Origin: Chitinophagaceae bacterium
GTDB taxonomy: Bacteria; Bacteroidota; Bacteroidia; Chitinophagales; Chitinophagaceae
Length of the DNA: 39,259 bases
Assembly (NCBI GenBank): GCA_947466405.1
Contig: CANICR010000007.1
Location: 1 to 39,259, forward strand
Direction of reading: 5' to 3'
This document shows, piece after piece, positions 21,143 through 31,804 of this stretch (position 1 is the stretch's first letter; every line of letters begins with the position of its first letter). The notes under the pieces are model-generated. The model saw only the letters and a program-made list of their open reading frames with translations. It did no database searches and was not told the origin of the DNA. The position numbers and the translations under genes are program-made.

Positions 21143-22249
21143 TTAAAAATAACTCAAATTTGTTTTTGGTGTTAATGCCAATAGCGATTCATACATCAAC
21201 TTAATAGTATTTTCTATATCATCCTTATGCAGCATCTCAACAGTAGTATGCATGTACCGCAAAGGGATAGAAATCAATACAGAAGGGCATCCCTCATTTG
21301 CATAAGCAAATGAATCAGTATCAGTACCGGTACTCCTGCTAATCGCTCTTAATTGAAATGGTATTTTTGATTTATTTCCAATGTCTTGAACAAAATCAAG
21401 TAATTTATTATGAACAGCGGGACCATAGCATAACGAAGGACCTTCTCCGCACTTACACTCTCCTTCAATAATTTTATTAATCATGGGCGTAGTACTATCA
21501 TGCGTAACATCTGTAATAATCGCAACATCAGGCTTTATGCGACGGGCAATCATTTCAGCGCCTCTTAAACCAATTTCTTCTTGAACAGCATTTACAATAT
21601 ATAAGGCAAAAGGTAATTTTCTTTTATTGGCATGTAAAATCCTAGCCACTTCAGCAATCATAAAACCACCAATTCTATTATCAAATGCCCTTCCGATTAA
21701 AAATCCATTTGCTAATTCATCATACCCTTCTTCATAAGTGGCCACGGCTCCAATATGAATACCTAAAGCTTCTACTTCTTTTTTATTTCGAGCCCCACAA
21801 TCAAGAAATAAGTTATCTACTTTTGGCTGTGGTTCTTTTGTATCTGCGTTTCCTAATCTTGTGTGAATGGCAGGCCAACCAAATACAGCTTTAACTGGAC
21901 CTTTTTTACCATGAATGAGCACACGCATTGAAGGTGCAATCTGGTGATCCACTCCCCCGTTTCTTTTTAAATAGATCAGCCCTTCTGATGAAATATAATT
22001 TACAAACCAGCTGATTTCATCTGCGTGAGCTTCTATGACTACTTTAAAAGCAGCTTTCGGATTAATAACACCTACTGCTGTTCCATAAGGATCGGTAAAC
22101 ATTTCGTCTACATATGGCTTCAAATACTTCATCCATATTTTCTGACCACTACTTTCAAATCCAACCGGTGAAGGATTGTTAATATATTCTTTCAAAAAAG
22201 TGTAAGAACTTTTTTCCAGTATCGATTTGTTTTTTACTGATTTTGCCAT
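21143..22249 (-). CDS. M42-family metallo-aminopeptidase
   Basis: 368 residues. Family motifs of the dinuclear M42/glutamyl-aminopeptidase type are present: 'VIEAHADEISWFV' (first metal His about residue 75), 'GRAFDNRIGGFMIAEV' (bridging Asp), 'AVQEEIGLRGAEM' (catalytic Glu and metal Glu), 'AIITDVTHDSTTP' (metal Asp) and 'IPLRYMHTTVEML' (last metal His). Members form dodecameric tetrahedral (TET) particles that trim peptides in the cytosol. No signal peptide. Annotations as 'endoglucanase' for relatives are historical errors. ATG at 22249; 25 bases after the UbiA-like gene. Confidence 0.94.
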   Translation of the reverse strand: MAKSVKNKSILEKSSYTFLKEYINNPSPVGFESSGQKIWMKYLKPYVDEMFTDPYGTAVGVINPKAAFKVVIEAHADEISWFVNYISSEGLIYLKRNGGVDHQIAPSMRVLIHGKKGPVKAVFGWPAIHTRLGNADTKEPQPKVDNLFLDCGARNKKEVEALGIHIGAVATYEEGYDELANGFLIGRAFDNRIGGFMIAEVARILHANKRKLPFALYIVNAVQEEIGLRGAEMIARRIKPDVAIITDVTHDSTTPMINKIIEGECKCGEGPSLCYGPAVHNKLLDFVQDIGNKSKIPFQLRAISRSTGTDTDSFAYANEGCPSVLISIPLRYMHTTVEMLHKDDIENTIKLMYESLLALTPKTNLSYF

Positions 22250-23648: not shown

Positions 23649-24662
23649 ATGACAAACCAACCAGAAAATAGAATTCAGGCTCAAATATTCGATTGCAAAC
23701 CCGAGCAATTTGAACAATTAGCATTGGACATATTCGAGTTTCAATACAACCATAATGATATATATAAAGCTTATTGCAACGTAATTAGTAAAACACCAGA
23801 TTATGTAGATTCTTTTTTTAAAATTCCTTTTTTACCTATTCAATTTTTCAAAACGAAAGTTATCACATCTGGCAAATTTGAAGCCGTTACTATATTTGAA
23901 AGCAGTAGAACCACAGGTAGCATTTCAAGTAAACATTTTATTAAAGACCTAAACTTGTATGAAGATAGTTTTATGAAGTGCTTTGATATGTTTTACGGGG
24001 ATGTGAAAAAATATTGTATTCTTGGATTACTCCCCTCTTATTTAGAAAGAAGCAACGCCTCGTTGGTGTATATGGTTGATCATTTAATCAAAAAAAGTGA
24101 GCACCCGAATAGTGGCTTTTATTTAAATGAATATGATAAACTTGCTGAAGTAATAAAAATAAATGAAGCCAACAATCAACAAACATTATTAATTGGGGTG
24201 TCTTACGCATTATTAGCCTTTGCAGAAAAGCATCCGATGAAATTGAGCAATACTATAGTAATGGAAACAGGTGGCATGAAAGGTCGTAGAGAAGAAATTA
24301 CTAAAGAAGCTATGCACTCCATATTAAAACAGCAATTTGAAATTTCTGAAATTCATTCTGAATATGGGATGACAGAATTAATATCTCAGGCATATTCTAA
24401 AAATAGGGGCATTTTCACTTGTCCTCCTTGGATGAAAATATTGCTTAGGCCTGAAGACAACCCTTTAGAAATAATTAATCCTGATTTTTCTGAAAATAAA
24501 TTTATAACAGGCGTTGTAAATATTATTGATTTGGCCAATTTGCACAGTTGTAGTTTTATCGCCACTGATGATGTAGGAAAAGTATATAAAAATGGAGATT
24601 TTGAAATACTTGGGAGGTTAGAAAATAGTGATATCAGGGGCTGTGGGTTGATGATTATTTGA
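23649..24662 (+). CDS. LuxE-like acyl-protein synthetase/adenylate-forming protein
   Basis: 337 residues. It resembles LuxE, the acyl-protein synthetase of bacterial luciferase operons, and the acyl-CoA ligase fold in general: 'FLPIQFFKTKVI' preceding a phosphate-binding loop 'ESSRTTGSISSKHF' (about residues 84-97, equivalent to S-S-G-T-T-G), then 'SEYGMTELISQAYS' (about 237-250, the adenylate-binding Y-G-x-T-E) and 'SFIATDDVGKVYKNGDFEILGR' (cited in part). It should activate a carboxylate with ATP. No luxC, luxD or luciferase genes are present, so the acceptor and acid are unknown. ATG at 23649; a terminator lies about 115 bases downstream. Confidence 0.85.
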   Translation: MTNQPENRIQAQIFDCKPEQFEQLALDIFEFQYNHNDIYKAYCNVISKTPDYVDSFFKIPFLPIQFFKTKVITSGKFEAVTIFESSRTTGSISSKHFIKDLNLYEDSFMKCFDMFYGDVKKYCILGLLPSYLERSNASLVYMVDHLIKKSEHPNSGFYLNEYDKLAEVIKINEANNQQTLLIGVSYALLAFAEKHPMKLSNTIVMETGGMKGRREEITKEAMHSILKQQFEISEIHSEYGMTELISQAYSKNRGIFTCPPWMKILLRPEDNPLEIINPDFSENKFITGVVNIIDLANLHSCSFIATDDVGKVYKNGDFEILGRLENSDIRGCGLMII

Positions 24663-26548: not shown

Positions 26549-27862
26549 TTAAGAACCAACTACATCTCCTTCTAGATCATAGTCAAATGCATTGGTGATT
26601 TTAACGTTAACAAAATCGCCTATAGATAGTTTATTACTCGAATTGATGATCACTTCATTGTCTACTTCCACACTATCAAATTCTGATCGTCCGATATATC
26701 TTCCAGATTCTTTTTTATCTATGATTACTTTTAGTACTTTACCTATTTTTTCCTGATTTTTCTCAAGACTGATATCTTGCTGTACTTCCATGATTTCCTG
26801 AGCCCTTTCTTCTTTTTCTTCGGGTGAAATATTATCTATCAAATCATGTGCGCTGGTTTGCTCTTCATGACTATATGTAAATATACCCACTCTGTCAAAC
26901 CGCATTTTTTGTAAAAATGTTTTCAGCTCTTCTACATCATCTCTTGTTTCACCAGGGAACCCGGCAATTAATGTAGTGCGCAAGCAAATATCAGGAATTT
27001 TATTTCGTATTGCCCCTACAAGATCTTCCATTTCCTCTCTGGTTATTTGACGTTTCATTGCTTTTAACATATTGTTAGAAGCATGCTGCAGCGGCATGTC
27101 AAGATAATTGCAGATATTGCTGCGTTCTTTAATTGCATCAATTATTTCTAAAGGAAACTTTGATGGATAGGCATAATGCAATCTTATCCATTCTAGTCCT
27201 TCGACATCTGCAAGCGCATGTAACAATTTAGGCAGCTCTCTTTTTTTGTAAATATCTAATCCGTAATACGTTAGCTCTTGAGCAATGAGCATCACTTCCT
27301 TTACACCACGTTGAACAAGACTTTTAGCTTCCTGTACGATAGACTCAATACTTCTGCTAACATGTTGACCTCGCATCAGCGGAATGGCACAAAAAGAACA
27401 AGTACGATTGCATCCTTCACTAATTTTCATGTATGCATAATGCTGTGGGGTACTCAATAATCTTTCTCCAATTAATTCGCCTTTATAATCCGCATTAAAT
27501 CTCTTTAGGATCATGGGTAATTCCATGGTACCAAAATAGGCATCTACTTCCGGAATTTCTTTCTCTAAATTAGATTTGTATCTTTCACTTAGGCAACCTG
27601 TAACAAATAATTTATCAATTTTGCCATTCTTTTTCAGGTTAACATGCTCTAGAATAGTATTGATACTTTCTTCCTTTGCCTTTTCAATAAATCCACAAGT
27701 ATTGATAATGACAATATTATGATCCTTTTTTGCATTCTCATGCACTGTATCAATATCATTGGCAATTAATTGACCGCTAAGCACTTCACTATCAACCATA
27801 TTTTTACTACATCCTAGGGTAATAATGTTGACTTTGTCTTTCTTTAATGTTTTTGTCTTCAT
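26549..27862 (-). CDS. rimO: Ribosomal protein S12 methylthiotransferase RimO
   Basis: 437 residues from ATG 27862 ('MKTKTLKKDKVNIITLGC'); the upstream extension to 27907 lacks family similarity. The N-terminal UPF0004 domain has 'TLGCSKNMVDSEVLSGQL', the RimO signature that separates it from MiaB, plus further cluster cysteines in 'NTCGFIEKA' and 'GCLSERY'. The radical SAM domain has 'EGCNRTCSFCAIPLMRG' (CxxxCxxC). A C-terminal TRAM domain ends the protein. It methylthiolates an aspartate of ribosomal protein S12 (Asp89 in E. coli numbering). An excellent -7 element lies immediately upstream. Confidence 0.96.
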   Translation of the reverse strand: MKTKTLKKDKVNIITLGCSKNMVDSEVLSGQLIANDIDTVHENAKKDHNIVIINTCGFIEKAKEESINTILEHVNLKKNGKIDKLFVTGCLSERYKSNLEKEIPEVDAYFGTMELPMILKRFNADYKGELIGERLLSTPQHYAYMKISEGCNRTCSFCAIPLMRGQHVSRSIESIVQEAKSLVQRGVKEVMLIAQELTYYGLDIYKKRELPKLLHALADVEGLEWIRLHYAYPSKFPLEIIDAIKERSNICNYLDMPLQHASNNMLKAMKRQITREEMEDLVGAIRNKIPDICLRTTLIAGFPGETRDDVEELKTFLQKMRFDRVGIFTYSHEEQTSAHDLIDNISPEEKEERAQEIMEVQQDISLEKNQEKIGKVLKVIIDKKESGRYIGRSEFDSVEVDNEVIINSSNKLSIGDFVNVKITNAFDYDLEGDVVGS

Positions 27863-27872
27863 AATAATGTTG

Positions 27873-27880
27873 CAAAGATA
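27873..27880 (-). promoter_or_regulatory. -7 promoter candidate for rimO
   Basis: The minus strand reads TATCTTTG, matching TAnnTTTG, ending only ten bases before the ATG at 27862, which implies a very short leader. The nearest upstream TTG lies about 24 bases away, longer than the usual spacing. Confidence 0.5.
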
Positions 27881-27952
27881 ATAAACTATTATTGGATACA
27901 TTTCCAAGTGGTTCCTTCATATAAAATAGGTAATTTAGCACCCAGTATAAAG

Positions 27953-28786
27953 ATGAACCAACAAATAATCAAAATAGCCATATTAAACCTTTACGAAGGC
28001 ACCGAAAACCAAGGTATGCGATGTTTGCGGGAGATTATTCATGATTTTTCTACAACAAATAATATCACGCTCCAATTAGAAGAATTTGATGTCAGGTTAT
28101 TAAAAGAAACACCTGGTACAGAATTTGATTTATACATTTCAACCGGTGGTCCGGGAAATCCAATGCATAGCGAAAACAGCGATTGGGAAAATATCTATTT
28201 TGAATGGCTTACTTCAATGATACACTTCAATGAAAACGAGAAAAATCACATAAAGAAAAACATTTTTTTCATCTGTCATTCATTTCAATTAGCCTGCAGG
28301 TATTTTAATGTTGCCCAAGTAATAAAAAGAAAGAGCACTTCCTTTGGCGTATTCCCTGTTCATTTTATAGAAGAAAATATTAATGATGTCATTTTTTCTG
28401 GCTTATCCAATCCTTTTTATGCAGTAGACAACAGAGATTACCAAGTGGTGCAACCAAACGAAATTAATATGAAAAAGGTTGGAGCTAAAATTTTAGCTAT
28501 TGAAAAAGATCGACCACATGTACAATACGAACGAGCCATAATGGCTATGCGATTTAATAAAAATATGATTGGTACACAATTTCATCCAGAAGCTGATTCA
28601 ATTGGGATGACAAAATACCTCAGCGCTGGTGAAAAGAAAACCTTAGTGATACAGAATTATGGAGAAGAAAAATGGAAATCGATGATTGATCAGTTAAATG
28701 ATCCTGAAAAAATAAGTTTAACGCACGATTCTATTCTTCCTGCATTTCTTCAATTATCCATTTTAAATCATTCAGACGAATCATAA
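27953..28786 (+). CDS. Class I glutamine amidotransferase-like protein with atypical nucleophile elbow
   Basis: 277 residues from ATG 27953; a GTG at 27908 would add 15 residues before the first strand and is less likely. The GATase1 fold is recognisable: first strand 'IKIAILNLYEG', 'FDLYISTGGPGNPMHS' (oxyanion strand), 'IFFICHSFQLACRYF' with nucleophile Cys108, and 'MIGTQFHPEADS' with His211 and Glu213, completing a Cys-His-Glu triad. The usual elbow G-x-C-x-G is replaced by F-I-C-H-S, so both glycines are lost. It ends 6 bases before the ATP-grasp-like gene. It may release ammonia from glutamine for its partner or cleave a gamma-glutamyl substrate. The real substrate is unknown. Confidence 0.85.
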   Translation: MNQQIIKIAILNLYEGTENQGMRCLREIIHDFSTTNNITLQLEEFDVRLLKETPGTEFDLYISTGGPGNPMHSENSDWENIYFEWLTSMIHFNENEKNHIKKNIFFICHSFQLACRYFNVAQVIKRKSTSFGVFPVHFIEENINDVIFSGLSNPFYAVDNRDYQVVQPNEINMKKVGAKILAIEKDRPHVQYERAIMAMRFNKNMIGTQFHPEADSIGMTKYLSAGEKKTLVIQNYGEEKWKSMIDQLNDPEKISLTHDSILPAFLQLSILNHSDES

Positions 28787-28792
28787 ACTATT

Positions 28793-29977
28793 ATGGACAA
28801 AAAAATAAGGGCTGCATTTAATAACCAATTTACTGAAGAGGAATACAAATCATATTTAAATGAATTTGATATAATTGGCAATCATTCCCTAGATTTCAGG
28901 ATTGCAGAAACACCTATTTTCATTCCGAAAGAATTCCGCGAAAAGATGCTTGATACTTGTGAGTATATTATTGATTTTATTAAGGATACTAATTTTAAAT
29001 CAATAACAGACAACAGCATTCCTTCCAAATACAAAATACCTAACGAAGAAGACTTCCCTTCTGTGCTTGTAATTGATTTTGCTGTTTGCAATAACAAACA
29101 AAATGTGCCAGAGCCACAACTTATTGAAATGCAAGGATTCCCTTCTCTGTATGGGTTTCAGGTAATTAATGATGAAATAACCAGGAATTATGCGCAGGTT
29201 CCTGATAATTACAAATCCTACTTAAATGGCTATCAAAAGGATAGCTATATTTCTCTATTAAAAGAAATTATTGTAGCCGAAACCAATAAAGAAAATGTTA
29301 TTTTACTGGATGTTTTTCCGAATAAACAAAAGACAAGAATAGACTTTTATTGTATTGAAAAATTATTAGGCATCAAAACCGTTTGTGTAACAGAAATAAA
29401 ATCAAATGGAACAGAATTGTTTTATTTAAGGGATGGAGAAAAAATAATTATAAAAAAGATTTTCAACCGAATTGTATTTGAAGAATTAGAAAAATACAAC
29501 CTGGCCAATATCATTGATTTCAATTTAGAATATGATGTAGAATGGATTAATCATCCAAATTGGTTTAATAGAATCAGTAAATACACGATGCCTTTTTTAG
29601 ACCATCCTAATATCCCTGTGACTTATTTTCTTCAAGACATCAAACAGCCAATCAAATTAAATGAATTTGTATTAAAACCTTTATTTTCATTTGCCGGCAT
29701 GGGAGTTATAATAAACCCTAGTCAAGAAGACATTGATTTGATTGATGACCCAGGCAATTGGATTTTACAAAAAAAAGTAGAATACGCCCCTATCGTTGAA
29801 ACATTAGAGGACCCAGCAAAAGCAGAAATTCGATTATTTTATTTCTGGAAAAAAACATGGGAAAGACCCATAGCCATTCATAACCTAGCACGATTAAGTA
29901 AAGGGGAAATGATTGGAACAAGATATAATGAAGGTAAAAAATGGGTTGGAGGAACTATCGCCTATTTTGAGCAATAG
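28793..29977 (+). CDS. ATP-grasp-like ligase candidate, partner of the amidotransferase
   Basis: 394 residues; I recognise no named family. Features consistent with an ATP-grasp fold: 'FVLKPLFSFAGMGVII' (about 297-312; nucleotide-binding Lys and glycine-rich loop), 'WILQKKVEYAPIVET' (about 326-340; hinge contacting adenine), 'AEIRLFYFW' (about 347-355; acidic metal-binding strand) and 'AIHNLARLSKG' (Arg/Asn site). 'IEMQGFPSLYGFQ' (about 113-125) may form a substrate loop. No signal peptide or membrane helix, so it is cytosolic. The intergenic gap of 6 bases to the amidotransferase suggests a joint ligase/amidase pathway. It could activate a carboxylate as acyl phosphate for amidation. Confidence in the fold is moderate and in the reaction low. 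Confidence 0.65.
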   Translation: MDKKIRAAFNNQFTEEEYKSYLNEFDIIGNHSLDFRIAETPIFIPKEFREKMLDTCEYIIDFIKDTNFKSITDNSIPSKYKIPNEEDFPSVLVIDFAVCNNKQNVPEPQLIEMQGFPSLYGFQVINDEITRNYAQVPDNYKSYLNGYQKDSYISLLKEIIVAETNKENVILLDVFPNKQKTRIDFYCIEKLLGIKTVCVTEIKSNGTELFYLRDGEKIIIKKIFNRIVFEELEKYNLANIIDFNLEYDVEWINHPNWFNRISKYTMPFLDHPNIPVTYFLQDIKQPIKLNEFVLKPLFSFAGMGVIINPSQEDIDLIDDPGNWILQKKVEYAPIVETLEDPAKAEIRLFYFWKKTWERPIAIHNLARLSKGEMIGTRYNEGKKWVGGTIAYFEQ

Positions 29978-30015: not shown

Positions 30016-30837
30016 TTATCTACTTAATGCATTGAAAATATTATATTCAAATCTGAATAAACCGCCGTTAGGACTAGTTCTCACTAATTCATTAGAAACA
30101 GCAAAACGATATCCCACATCCACTCTCATCCTACTTTTTATGATAAATTGAACAGAAGGAGCAAAATCCAAATACGTTTTACCAGTAGCAATATTACTTT
30201 GACCTAATATTTCCAACATGCCATTCACATTTAATTGATCATAACTGATGTATTCTTTTGGAAAAAACAACTTTCCTATTGAAGCTGTGAAGTTAATCGC
30301 TCGCCTGTTGGTGGCTCCTTCAATCAACCAAGGTTTATTAATATTGTCTGAACCATATACATATCCAACGGAGGAAGAGATGGCTAATTTATTTATCAAT
30401 TTTGTGGCAATTGAACCAAATTCAAATCCTGAATTATGTCCATTTAAATCAATCGCCGGTTGATGAATTTCACTGTTATTAAATGCATATCGAGAAAACA
30501 ATGCCAATCTGAAATGAGCATGCACGTCATCATTGCTGATTAAGCGGTATTTCAGATATAAGGCTCCACCTTCTGATGCTAATGATTGGTTTCTGTTTGA
30601 TATGAAACCATCAGCATGAATCATTATTTTTTTTGAAATACCAAACATAATTTCCGGAAGCATATAGAAATTAAGTTGAGCTGTATTTTTTTCCTTCATC
30701 AAGGAACTCGTCATTCGAAAACCGAGCGTGCCCGTTGCCATATTACTGGCAGGTTCAGTATACACAAAAAGCTCCTGAGATTTTGAATTAAAAAAGAGAC
30801 AACAATATATTATTAACTGAAGAATTGACTTTTTCAT
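30016..30837 (-). CDS. Outer-membrane beta-barrel protein in metal-related cluster
   Basis: 273 residues from ATG 30837 with signal peptide ('KKSILQLIIYCCLFF', cleavage near NSKSQ). The mature part has alternating hydrophobic/aromatic strands separated by short turns, e.g. 'GTLGFRMTSSLM', 'FRLALFSRYAF', 'ISSSVGYVYGS', 'MRVDVGYRFAVS', ending 'GLFRFEYNIFNAL', as in small Bacteroidota barrels of about 12 strands. No family name can be given. It is the last gene of the HYC/HMA cluster, separated from the HMA gene by a strong hairpin. It could be a porin or assembly component for metal handling; this is inferred from position only. Confidence 0.7.
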   Translation of the reverse strand: MKKSILQLIIYCCLFFNSKSQELFVYTEPASNMATGTLGFRMTSSLMKEKNTAQLNFYMLPEIMFGISKKIMIHADGFISNRNQSLASEGGALYLKYRLISNDDVHAHFRLALFSRYAFNNSEIHQPAIDLNGHNSGFEFGSIATKLINKLAISSSVGYVYGSDNINKPWLIEGATNRRAINFTASIGKLFFPKEYISYDQLNVNGMLEILGQSNIATGKTYLDFAPSVQFIIKSRMRVDVGYRFAVSNELVRTSPNGGLFRFEYNIFNALSR

Positions 30838-30840
30838 AAA

Positions 30841-30882
30841 AAACAAATAAAGGATACAGCTTAGTAATGACAGCTGTATCCT
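30841..30882 (-). terminator. Strong hairpin with T-rich tail between HMA and barrel genes (terminator or attenuator)
   Basis: A perfect 11-bp stem AGGATACAGCT / AGCTGTATCCT (arms at 30872-30882 and 30851-30861) with a 10-base loop is followed on the minus strand by TTATTTGTTT. It ends only 13 bases before the barrel ATG, so it would both reduce read-through and shape the ribosome-binding region. Confidence 0.7.
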
Positions 30883-30890
30883 ATGAATAG

Positions 30891-31433
30891 CTATATTATT
30901 ACATGATAGATTCTTGTGCCCATTGATTTGCTTTTATTATTGCAGCAATTTCCAATGATACCTGAATGGTAACATTCCATTTTAGTATATTTTTCATTTT
31001 TTTTATACTCTTTTGCTGACACAAACCCTTTATCTACAATTCGTAGCACATTTTCACCATTTAATGTATTCGCATTTACATGCAGAAAATGATACATAAT
31101 TCCATCAACTTCTATATGGGCGTCATTTGATACATTAACATGATCAAACATTATGGTGGCTTCTAATTTAGCAACAAAAAATCCTGCGCCTTCTACTTTC
31201 TTTTTTAATTGATCGTAACTTACTGCAGCATTAGATTTGAAACTGATTTCGAAACTTGAATTTTTGATATCAGGGACAACATGATCTACATAATCAATTG
31301 ATTTCAATGCTTTATTTATTGCATTGCTACACATACTGCAGGTTAATCCGCTTGCCTGAATGACCACTTTATTTATTTGGGCATTGGCATGTAGGCAAAT
31401 ACATGAGATCAATAAAATAATACTATTTTTCAT
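30891..31433 (-). CDS. Exported heavy-metal-associated (HMA) domain protein with Cys-rich C-terminal extension
   Basis: 180 residues. Signal peptide (residues 1-19, ending LHANA), then an HMA domain (about 21-95) with metal site 'GLTCSMCSN' (C32, C35) and a ferredoxin-like pattern ending 'VEGAGFFVAKLE'. The remaining 85 residues are not a known domain to me: 'IEVDGIMYHFLHVN', 'VDKGFVSAKEY', and the Cys/His-rich 'MECYHSGIIGNCCNN'. Such domains bind Cu(I) or Zn(II). Export to the periplasm is unusual for HMA domains, which mostly act in cytosolic chaperones and P-type ATPases. It overlaps the next gene by one base (TAATG), so the two are translationally coupled. Confidence 0.88.
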   Translation of the reverse strand: MKNSIILLISCICLHANAQINKVVIQASGLTCSMCSNAINKALKSIDYVDHVVPDIKNSSFEISFKSNAAVSYDQLKKKVEGAGFFVAKLEATIMFDHVNVSNDAHIEVDGIMYHFLHVNANTLNGENVLRIVDKGFVSAKEYKKNEKYTKMECYHSGIIGNCCNNKSKSMGTRIYHVII

Positions 31434-31804
31434 TATTGAGGAGTTGCATTAATAATAGCAGGACTCAATGCAGCACGCTCATATTGGCAACAGCCTGGCA
31501 AATCGGAATATACATTATCCGCTGCTCTAAAATCCTGTGTATCATATCCGATTTTAGCAATAGCTTCTTGAATAGTTGCACTGGAAGTTTTTTCAGTATT
31601 ATAAGCGACTTCTAATGATAACTTGTCTGCATCCCATGAAGCCGAGTTTGCACCTACAGATTTTGCGGCTTTTTCTATTTTCTTTTTGCACATACCGCAA
31701 TTTCCCCAGACTTTAATTGTTTCCTTTTTTGATGTTTGTGCCATTGAGACATTGGAAAATAATATACCTAATAATAAAACTGATATTAATGATAGTGTTT
31801 TCAT
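31433..31804 (-). CDS. Exported heavy-metal-associated (HMA) domain protein
   Basis: 123 residues. Signal peptide (residues 1-22, ending VSMAQ), then an HMA domain with 'IKVWGNCGMCKKKIEKAAKS' (metal ligands C36 and C39), 'ANSASWDADKLSLEVAY' and 'AIAKIGYDTQDF'. The C-terminal 'DLPGCCQYER' adds a vicinal Cys pair. It matches the periplasmic Bacteroidota HMA proteins that resemble mercuric-transport MerP, here most likely for copper or zinc. Distance from the HYC_CC_PP gene is 109 bases, containing one dyad. ATG at 31804. Confidence 0.92.
   Translation of the reverse strand: MKTLSLISVLLLGILFSNVSMAQTSKKETIKVWGNCGMCKKKIEKAAKSVGANSASWDADKLSLEVAYNTEKTSSATIQEAIAKIGYDTQDFRAADNVYSDLPGCCQYERAALSPAIINATPQ

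Follow-up and report, generated by a model that had tools for sequence, protein, structure and literature searches.

The described enzymes that come closest to the second of the two genes studied here are YgiC, YjfC and the glutathionylspermidine synthetase Gss of E. coli, all of which have the ATP-grasp fold in common with it. YgiC and YjfC are named peptidylpolyamine synthetases in PMC12568646, where Pederick 2023 is cited for peptide-spermidine ligase activity, and the K-12 annotation names them peptide--spermidine ligases. For the first gene, a relative of the class I glutamine amidotransferases (GATases), the known enzymes to be considered are the plant gamma-glutamyl peptidase GGP1 and PuuD, both gamma-glutamyl hydrolases with the class I GATase fold, and the homoserine O-succinyltransferase MetA of the HTS family, besides the glutaminases CarA and GuaA. 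As regards operons of this general kind, Iyer et al. 2009 is said to be a survey of amidoligase operons that combine ATP-grasp ligases, glutamine-synthetase-like ligases and peptidases, and would be the likeliest source for an earlier description of the present one; among the papers listed in our searches, which covered open-licence literature only, no description of this operon was seen.

The window, that is, the whole stretch of 39,259 nucleotides that was analysed, corresponds to contig C7 in a genome of 2.08 Mb, 96% complete and divided into 188 contigs. Gene 1 (27953..28786, + strand) encodes a protein of 277 residues and gene 2 (28793..29977, + strand) one of 394 residues; a gap of 6 bases (28787..28792) separates them. 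Alignment of homologues places the start of gene 1 at the ATG at 27953, and not at the start of a longer GTG ORF at 27908. Upstream, rimO is read divergently on the − strand from its start at 27862, and downstream a convergent ORF of 276 residues occupies 30016-30846 (−), so that the compact unit with divergent and convergent neighbours proposed in an earlier note on this DNA is borne out by the ORF coordinates. The divergent intergenic region between rimO and gene 1 (27863..27952) is the presumed location of a promoter, none being supported by patterns: the Bacteroidetes-type promoter pattern has 3 matches against 4.4 by chance, none of them before gene 1, while promoter-like sites (19 versus 14.0 ± 3.6 in shuffles) and terminator-like sites (3 versus 1.3 ± 1.1) are not clearly above the shuffled values.

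The sequence motifs of gene 2 that had been quoted as an apparent ATP-grasp core (LKPLFSFAGMGV, LQKKVEYAP, EIRLFYF, NLARLSKG) are present in its translation, and the assignment to this fold is supported both by the predicted structure, compared by means of Foldseek, and by profile comparison. The AlphaFold model (pLDDT 93.2) yields 26 PDB hits at E<=0.001, all of them chains of glutathione or homoglutathione synthetases, a GSS-like effector, GspS (including a putative one), YgiC/YjfC or Cp1B; the top fold matches are eukaryotic glutathione/homoglutathione synthetases, with 10-14% identity in the Foldseek alignments. At the level of sequence the relationship is more distant. The match of gene 2 to Pfam GSP_synth (PF03738) has an E of 0.039 and 13.6 bits, below the gathering cutoff of 29.3, and no Pfam family matches the window protein above its cutoff; GSP_synth is nonetheless the family most often touched by homologues: of 56, 15 match it at E<=0.1, the best of them at 3.7e-4. 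Comparison with the YgiC/YjfC profile gives E 3.4e-4 and a probability of 38% over 62 columns, among which are FVLKPLFSFAGMGV / YVVKPIFSREGANV, and the gene 2 profile against YgiC gives E 0.012, at the edge of detection. Kinship of gene 2 with the RimK-like protein described below found no support. Where the earlier note could name no family, the models and profiles assign gene 2, as a divergent member, to the superfamily that comprises glutathione synthetase, GspS and YgiC, its predicted ATP-grasp fold being closest to GSS/GspS. Among the 80 matches listed, many are from Chitinophagaceae or Ferruginibacter, and the best named ones, at 60%, belong to a Ferruginibacter and an uncultured Bacteroidetes assembly; in 72,556 plasmid records no match to gene 2 was found at E 1e-5.

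The residues expected of such an enzyme appear to be in place. Gene 2 has a predicted metal site, D95 ... E112-x-Q114 (29075..29134, +), that aligns with D102, E115 and N117 of YgiC, and a pair of lysines, K263 and K295, that align with K267 and K302; all five residues are invariant in 56 of 56 homologues. The predicted ATP-binding lysine with its glycine-rich loop, KPLFSFAGMGV (29675..29707, +), has KPIFSREGANV as its equivalent in YgiC. The D ... E-x-N/Q site, the lysine pair and the K-P-glycine loop are shared with YgiC/YjfC; the row of Gss is misplaced around E112-Q114 in the alignment and was excluded from the residue comparison. The differences are also clear: the metal motif has Asn in YgiC/YjfC and Gln in gene 2, gene neighbours differ, and of the invariants that lie apart from the metal and ATP sites, most (R226, H254, F300, E345, R347, R367 and W384 among them) are not matched by an identical residue in YgiC/YjfC. 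Since these invariants are not common to both, the acceptor and donor of gene 2 need not match those of YgiC/YjfC.

Gene 1 matches Pfam GATase (E 3.5e-10), as do all 40 of its aligned homologues. As the earlier note had read from the translation (FFICHSFQ; H211-P-E213), the triad is complete: the nucleophile Cys108 (codon 28274..28276, +; context F-F-I-C-H-S-F-Q) and His211-Pro212-Glu213 (28583..28591, +) are invariant in 40 of 40 sequences, and the GGPG loop is conserved in the family. With an AlphaFold model of pLDDT 92.3, the protein is predicted to have the class I glutamine amidotransferase superfamily fold with a Cys-His-Glu triad. The nucleophile elbow is another matter. Neither glycine of G-x-C-x-G is found in any of the 40 homologues, which have F, L or M at Cys-2 and Ser at Cys+2 throughout, whereas both glycines occur in CarA (FGICLGHQ) and GuaA (FGVCYGMQ) of E. 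coli in the same alignment; the gamma-Glu-GABA hydrolase PuuD (FAICRGLQ), likewise from E. coli, has only that at +2, and MetA (LFVCWAVQ) has neither. To judge from these sequences, the altered elbow is a genuine and conserved feature that sets the family apart from both glutaminases in the comparison. Gln at Cys+4, kept in 39 of 40 homologues, is nonetheless shared with glutaminases and leaves some room for glutaminase activity.

The best Foldseek matches of the gene 1 model are TM1158, the gamma-glutamyl peptidase GGP1, DnfC and MetA, with TM1158 and the gamma-glutamyl peptidase ranked slightly above MetA. In PuuD the nucleophilic Cys and a His-Pro-Glu align with those of gene 1, although PuuD has Gly at Cys+2 where the gene 1 family has Ser. 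In profile comparison with the PDB a single entry, MetA 2vdj, reaches E<=0.001 (E 3.8e-4), and it also has a Ser-Arg motif in common with gene 1; Pfam HTS (PF04204) reaches 15 of the 40 homologues at E<=0.1 (best 1.9e-5), although in the window protein itself no HTS match reaches this threshold and GATase is its only family.

The co-occurrence of the two genes was studied in an order-level sample of 149 genomes and in a phylum sample of 395. At the order level gene 2 is matched in 51 genomes, nearly at full length in 48; the short matches are contig-edge pieces in two genomes (G120, G046) and a 49-residue hit with E 9.1e-4 in a third (G008). Both genes are present in 49 genomes, two others have only the gene 2 hit and one only gene 1, these three cases (G046, G008, G139) amounting to a contig-edge piece and to hits of E 9.1e-4 and 2.6e-4 with stops. 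Gene 1 lies directly upstream of gene 2, on the same strand and within 500 bp, in 32 of the 49, and within 5 kb in 4, and is far away or on another contig in 13, from which it follows that the coupling of the two genes is not just linkage. In the phylum sample gene 2 is hit in 115 genomes, gene 1 in 86 (after six weak hits, G483, G194, G351, G522, G412 and G404, with E 1.7e-6 to 5.9e-4, were set aside) and both in 69. Fisher P values for co-occurrence in this sample ignore shared ancestry and are therefore inflated. At the level of the class or closer, gene 1 and gene 2 are carried by an identical set of 48 genomes. The co-occurrence in related genomes on which the earlier reading had been staked, along with the predicted ATP-grasp fold, thus held within the class. 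Beyond it the pairing loosens: 46 of the 115 gene-2 genomes have no GATase hit, a count that depends on the scoring of at most 6 candidates per genome and that includes one genome (G191) whose gene 2 hit is only 24 residues long, and gene 2 is without a hit in 17 of the 86 genomes with the GATase. A strict two-gene complex was rejected on these figures. In 7 of the 8 GATase-only loci that were read, a circularly permuted ATP-grasp protein (cluster 36), with weak kinship to gene 2 (hhalign E 0.0025, probability 12), is placed between a RimK-like gene and the GATase; the eighth showed the GATase alone.

The gene set is in fact larger than two genes, since a GCS2/YbdK-type carboxylate-amine ligase and a RimK-like ATP-grasp protein share the operon or the genome with it. 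Of the idea of a two-gene unit, the functional association therefore stands, co-occurrence being seen even where the genes are unlinked, and the limitation to two members does not. Each of the two additional ligases is found in 109 of the 115 gene-2 genomes of the phylum sample; GCS2 occurs without gene 2 in 20 genomes. Operons were mapped, with ORFs called only at >=80 aa, in 41 loci (the window and 40 picked by hand for diversity, hence not at random) and in 80 named loci; alignments A1 and A2 cover 24 and 27 of 30 loci, respectively. A RimK-like gene is near the locus in 17 of the 41 diverse and 14 of the 80 named loci, and a GCS2 gene in 14 and 17. Two loci (L206 and L208) show the most complete arrangement, esterase - RimK-like ATP-grasp - GCS2 - GATase - gene 2. 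The family matches are PF00756 for the esterase and, in locus L205, PRK13515 (E 2.1e-160) for GCS2 and rimK_fam (E 1.9e-5) for the RimK-like protein. In the window's own genome, GCS2 is on a different contig (C156) and is 75% identical to that of a relative; a RimK-like gene was not found in this genome at its 96% completeness. Just upstream of GCS2 on C156 there is a class A beta-lactamase-like ORF (L238:1-771, E 4.2e-15, below the cutoff), at the position that the RimK-like ligase has in several relatives.

A further gene emerges from the gene-2 loci that lack the GATase. In four of these (L204, L205, L209, L213) a gene resembling M29 peptidases, whose Pfam identity was checked for two, lies between GCS2 and gene 2. 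We searched for close matches to it (E<1e-150) in 80 genomes, namely all 46 with gene 2 and no GATase hit and 34 of the 69 with both (none of the 17 GATase-only genomes being included): 8 of the 46 have one, versus 0 of the 34. In 7 of these 8 genomes the gene is situated between GCS2 and gene 2, and the genomes belong to families f40, f51, f55, f59 and f67; in the remaining one (G344) it is elsewhere. The f55 genome is G434, and the eight other sampled gene-2 genomes of that family carry the GATase, adjoining gene 2 in five. The M29-like protein is therefore an apparent natural substitute for the GATase homologue in some genomes. Against such an exchange, no close M29-like gene was found in the remaining 38 of the 46 genomes without a GATase hit, and a distant M29 relative (E 4e-26 to 2e-37) is present elsewhere in 18 of the 34 that carry the GATase.

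These results can be interpreted in terms of a pathway that builds a gamma-glutamyl-type amide and then trims or edits it, as would fit the joint presence of GCS2, a GSS-like ligase and an enzyme similar to GGP1, PuuD or MetA. Glutathione synthesis offers a likeness, inasmuch as the set pairs GCS2, a relative of glutamate-cysteine ligase, with a GSS-like ligase. We see about an even chance that the two genes belong to such a pathway, with several ligases making an amide or peptide non-ribosomally and the GATase homologue acting on a gamma-glutamyl-type acyl group, which it would cleave off or transfer. With substrates, order and direction of the reactions as we infer them, the GCS2/YbdK-type ligase, encoded elsewhere in the window's own genome, would link an amine to an acid, probably to the gamma-carboxylate of glutamate; gene 2 would convert a carboxylate of this intermediate to an acyl phosphate and couple it to a further amine, for which an amino acid or a polyamine are the best guesses; and the RimK-like protein would make another amide bond in most genomes with the set. 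Gene 1 would not be an ammonia donor: its Cys may form an acyl-enzyme on a gamma-glutamyl-type amide and pass the acyl group to water or to another acceptor, in the manner of PuuD, GGP1 or MetA, thus trimming or editing a product that is probably a small peptide or amine conjugate. Against this reading, the search of the window's own genome yielded no RimK-like gene, and its GCS2 sits on a separate contig, downstream of the ORF resembling beta-lactamases. A more explicit version, in which GCS2, the GSS-like and the RimK-like ligases form a phylum-wide, undescribed pathway to a gamma-glutamyl-peptidyl amine similar to glutathionylspermidine, finished by a GATase-derived deglutamylase that the M29-like protein can replace, strikes us as rather doubtful.

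It was originally proposed, from CarA/CarB and PurQ/PurL, that ammonia derived from glutamine, or a gamma-glutamyl group, is used by gene 2 as a carboxylate ligase. In the ammonia model gene 1 would be a glutaminase feeding gene 2, which would form a primary amide on a carboxylate. The superfamily match with its full triad, the retention of the GGPG loop and of Gln at Cys+4, and a co-occurrence that is near perfect inside the class all agree with this. Nevertheless, the replacement of both elbow glycines in 40 of 40 homologues, the many gene-2 genomes with no GATase hit (46 of 115) and the M29-like gene at the operon place of the GATase in 7 genomes together disfavor ammonia supply, as do the 13 of 49 genomes in which the genes are far apart and the resemblance of gene 2 to ligases that use amino acids or polyamines; we consider it unlikely, while the use of a gamma-glutamyl group, the other half of the proposal, stays plausible. 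It is similarly improbable, in our opinion, that gene 1 is a MetA-like acyltransferase whose Cys accepts the acyl group of a thioester or amide and hands it on, at an alcohol or amine, to the substrate that gene 2 then ligates: the homoserine O-succinyltransferase 2vdj as the sole PDB profile match, the HTS matches of 15 homologues, the E. coli MetA elbow likewise devoid of glycines and the MetA structures among the top Foldseek hits speak for it, but the window protein has GATase as its sole family, one shared by all 40 homologues, TM1158 and the gamma-glutamyl peptidase are slightly ahead of MetA in Foldseek, and a relative of M29 peptidases would be an odd replacement for an acyltransferase. 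Finally, the tagging of a protein or ribosomal peptide with residues added by the RimK-like and GSS-like ligases and removed by gene 1 or the M29-like protein, although suggested by a RimK-family-like member of the set, by the combination of a hydrolase with ligases and by the peptidase-like substitute, is very unlikely given that gene 2 resembles small-molecule ligases and, as a weak argument with ORFs <80 aa uncalled, that no recurring precursor-peptide gene lies beside the mapped operons.

Whichever chemistry applies, this amide-bond gene set is apparently widely shared in Bacteroidota-type bacteria and uncharacterised. With a gene 2 hit in about three in ten of the phylum genomes sampled (115 of 395), the frequency of the ligase set suggests that these bacteria may have a common metabolite or modification still to be characterised. 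The gene 1 family also provides a natural case for examining how the class I GATase fold departs from glutaminase chemistry, PuuD and MetA being known end points.

Several other genes were noted around the locus. On the upstream side, divergent from gene 1, bshC (bacillithiol cysteine-adding enzyme, TIGR03998; 24871-26559, −) adjoins rimO (TIGR01125; 26549-27862, −), and its cluster is also upstream in five named loci (L061-L064, L066); a link to bacillithiol by way of bshC was rejected as local gene order only, the cluster being present in 6 of the 121 loci compared, window included. An M42 glutamyl aminopeptidase is encoded at 21146-22249 (−), and its cluster is upstream of the GATase in 17 of the 80 named loci, immediately next to it in 15; it may be a further member of the pathway or merely reflect the gene order of the lineage. 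A protein similar to the LuxE acyl-protein synthetase is encoded at 23649-24659 (+), and its cluster is present in 16 of the 17 loci holding the M42 cluster. Near a Porin_10 gene, two small proteins are encoded at 30891-31804 (−), one of 180 residues with an HMA domain and one of 123 residues that is similar by eye: could they take part in metal handling? Lastly, amidohydrolases of one cluster (the two members that were tested belong to Amidohydro_3) are encoded beside gene 2 or the GATase pair, or one gene away, in loci of two distant groups, one consisting of L217, L218, L221, L227 and L228 and the other of L083, L094, L095, L101, L113, L115, L124, L125 and L133.
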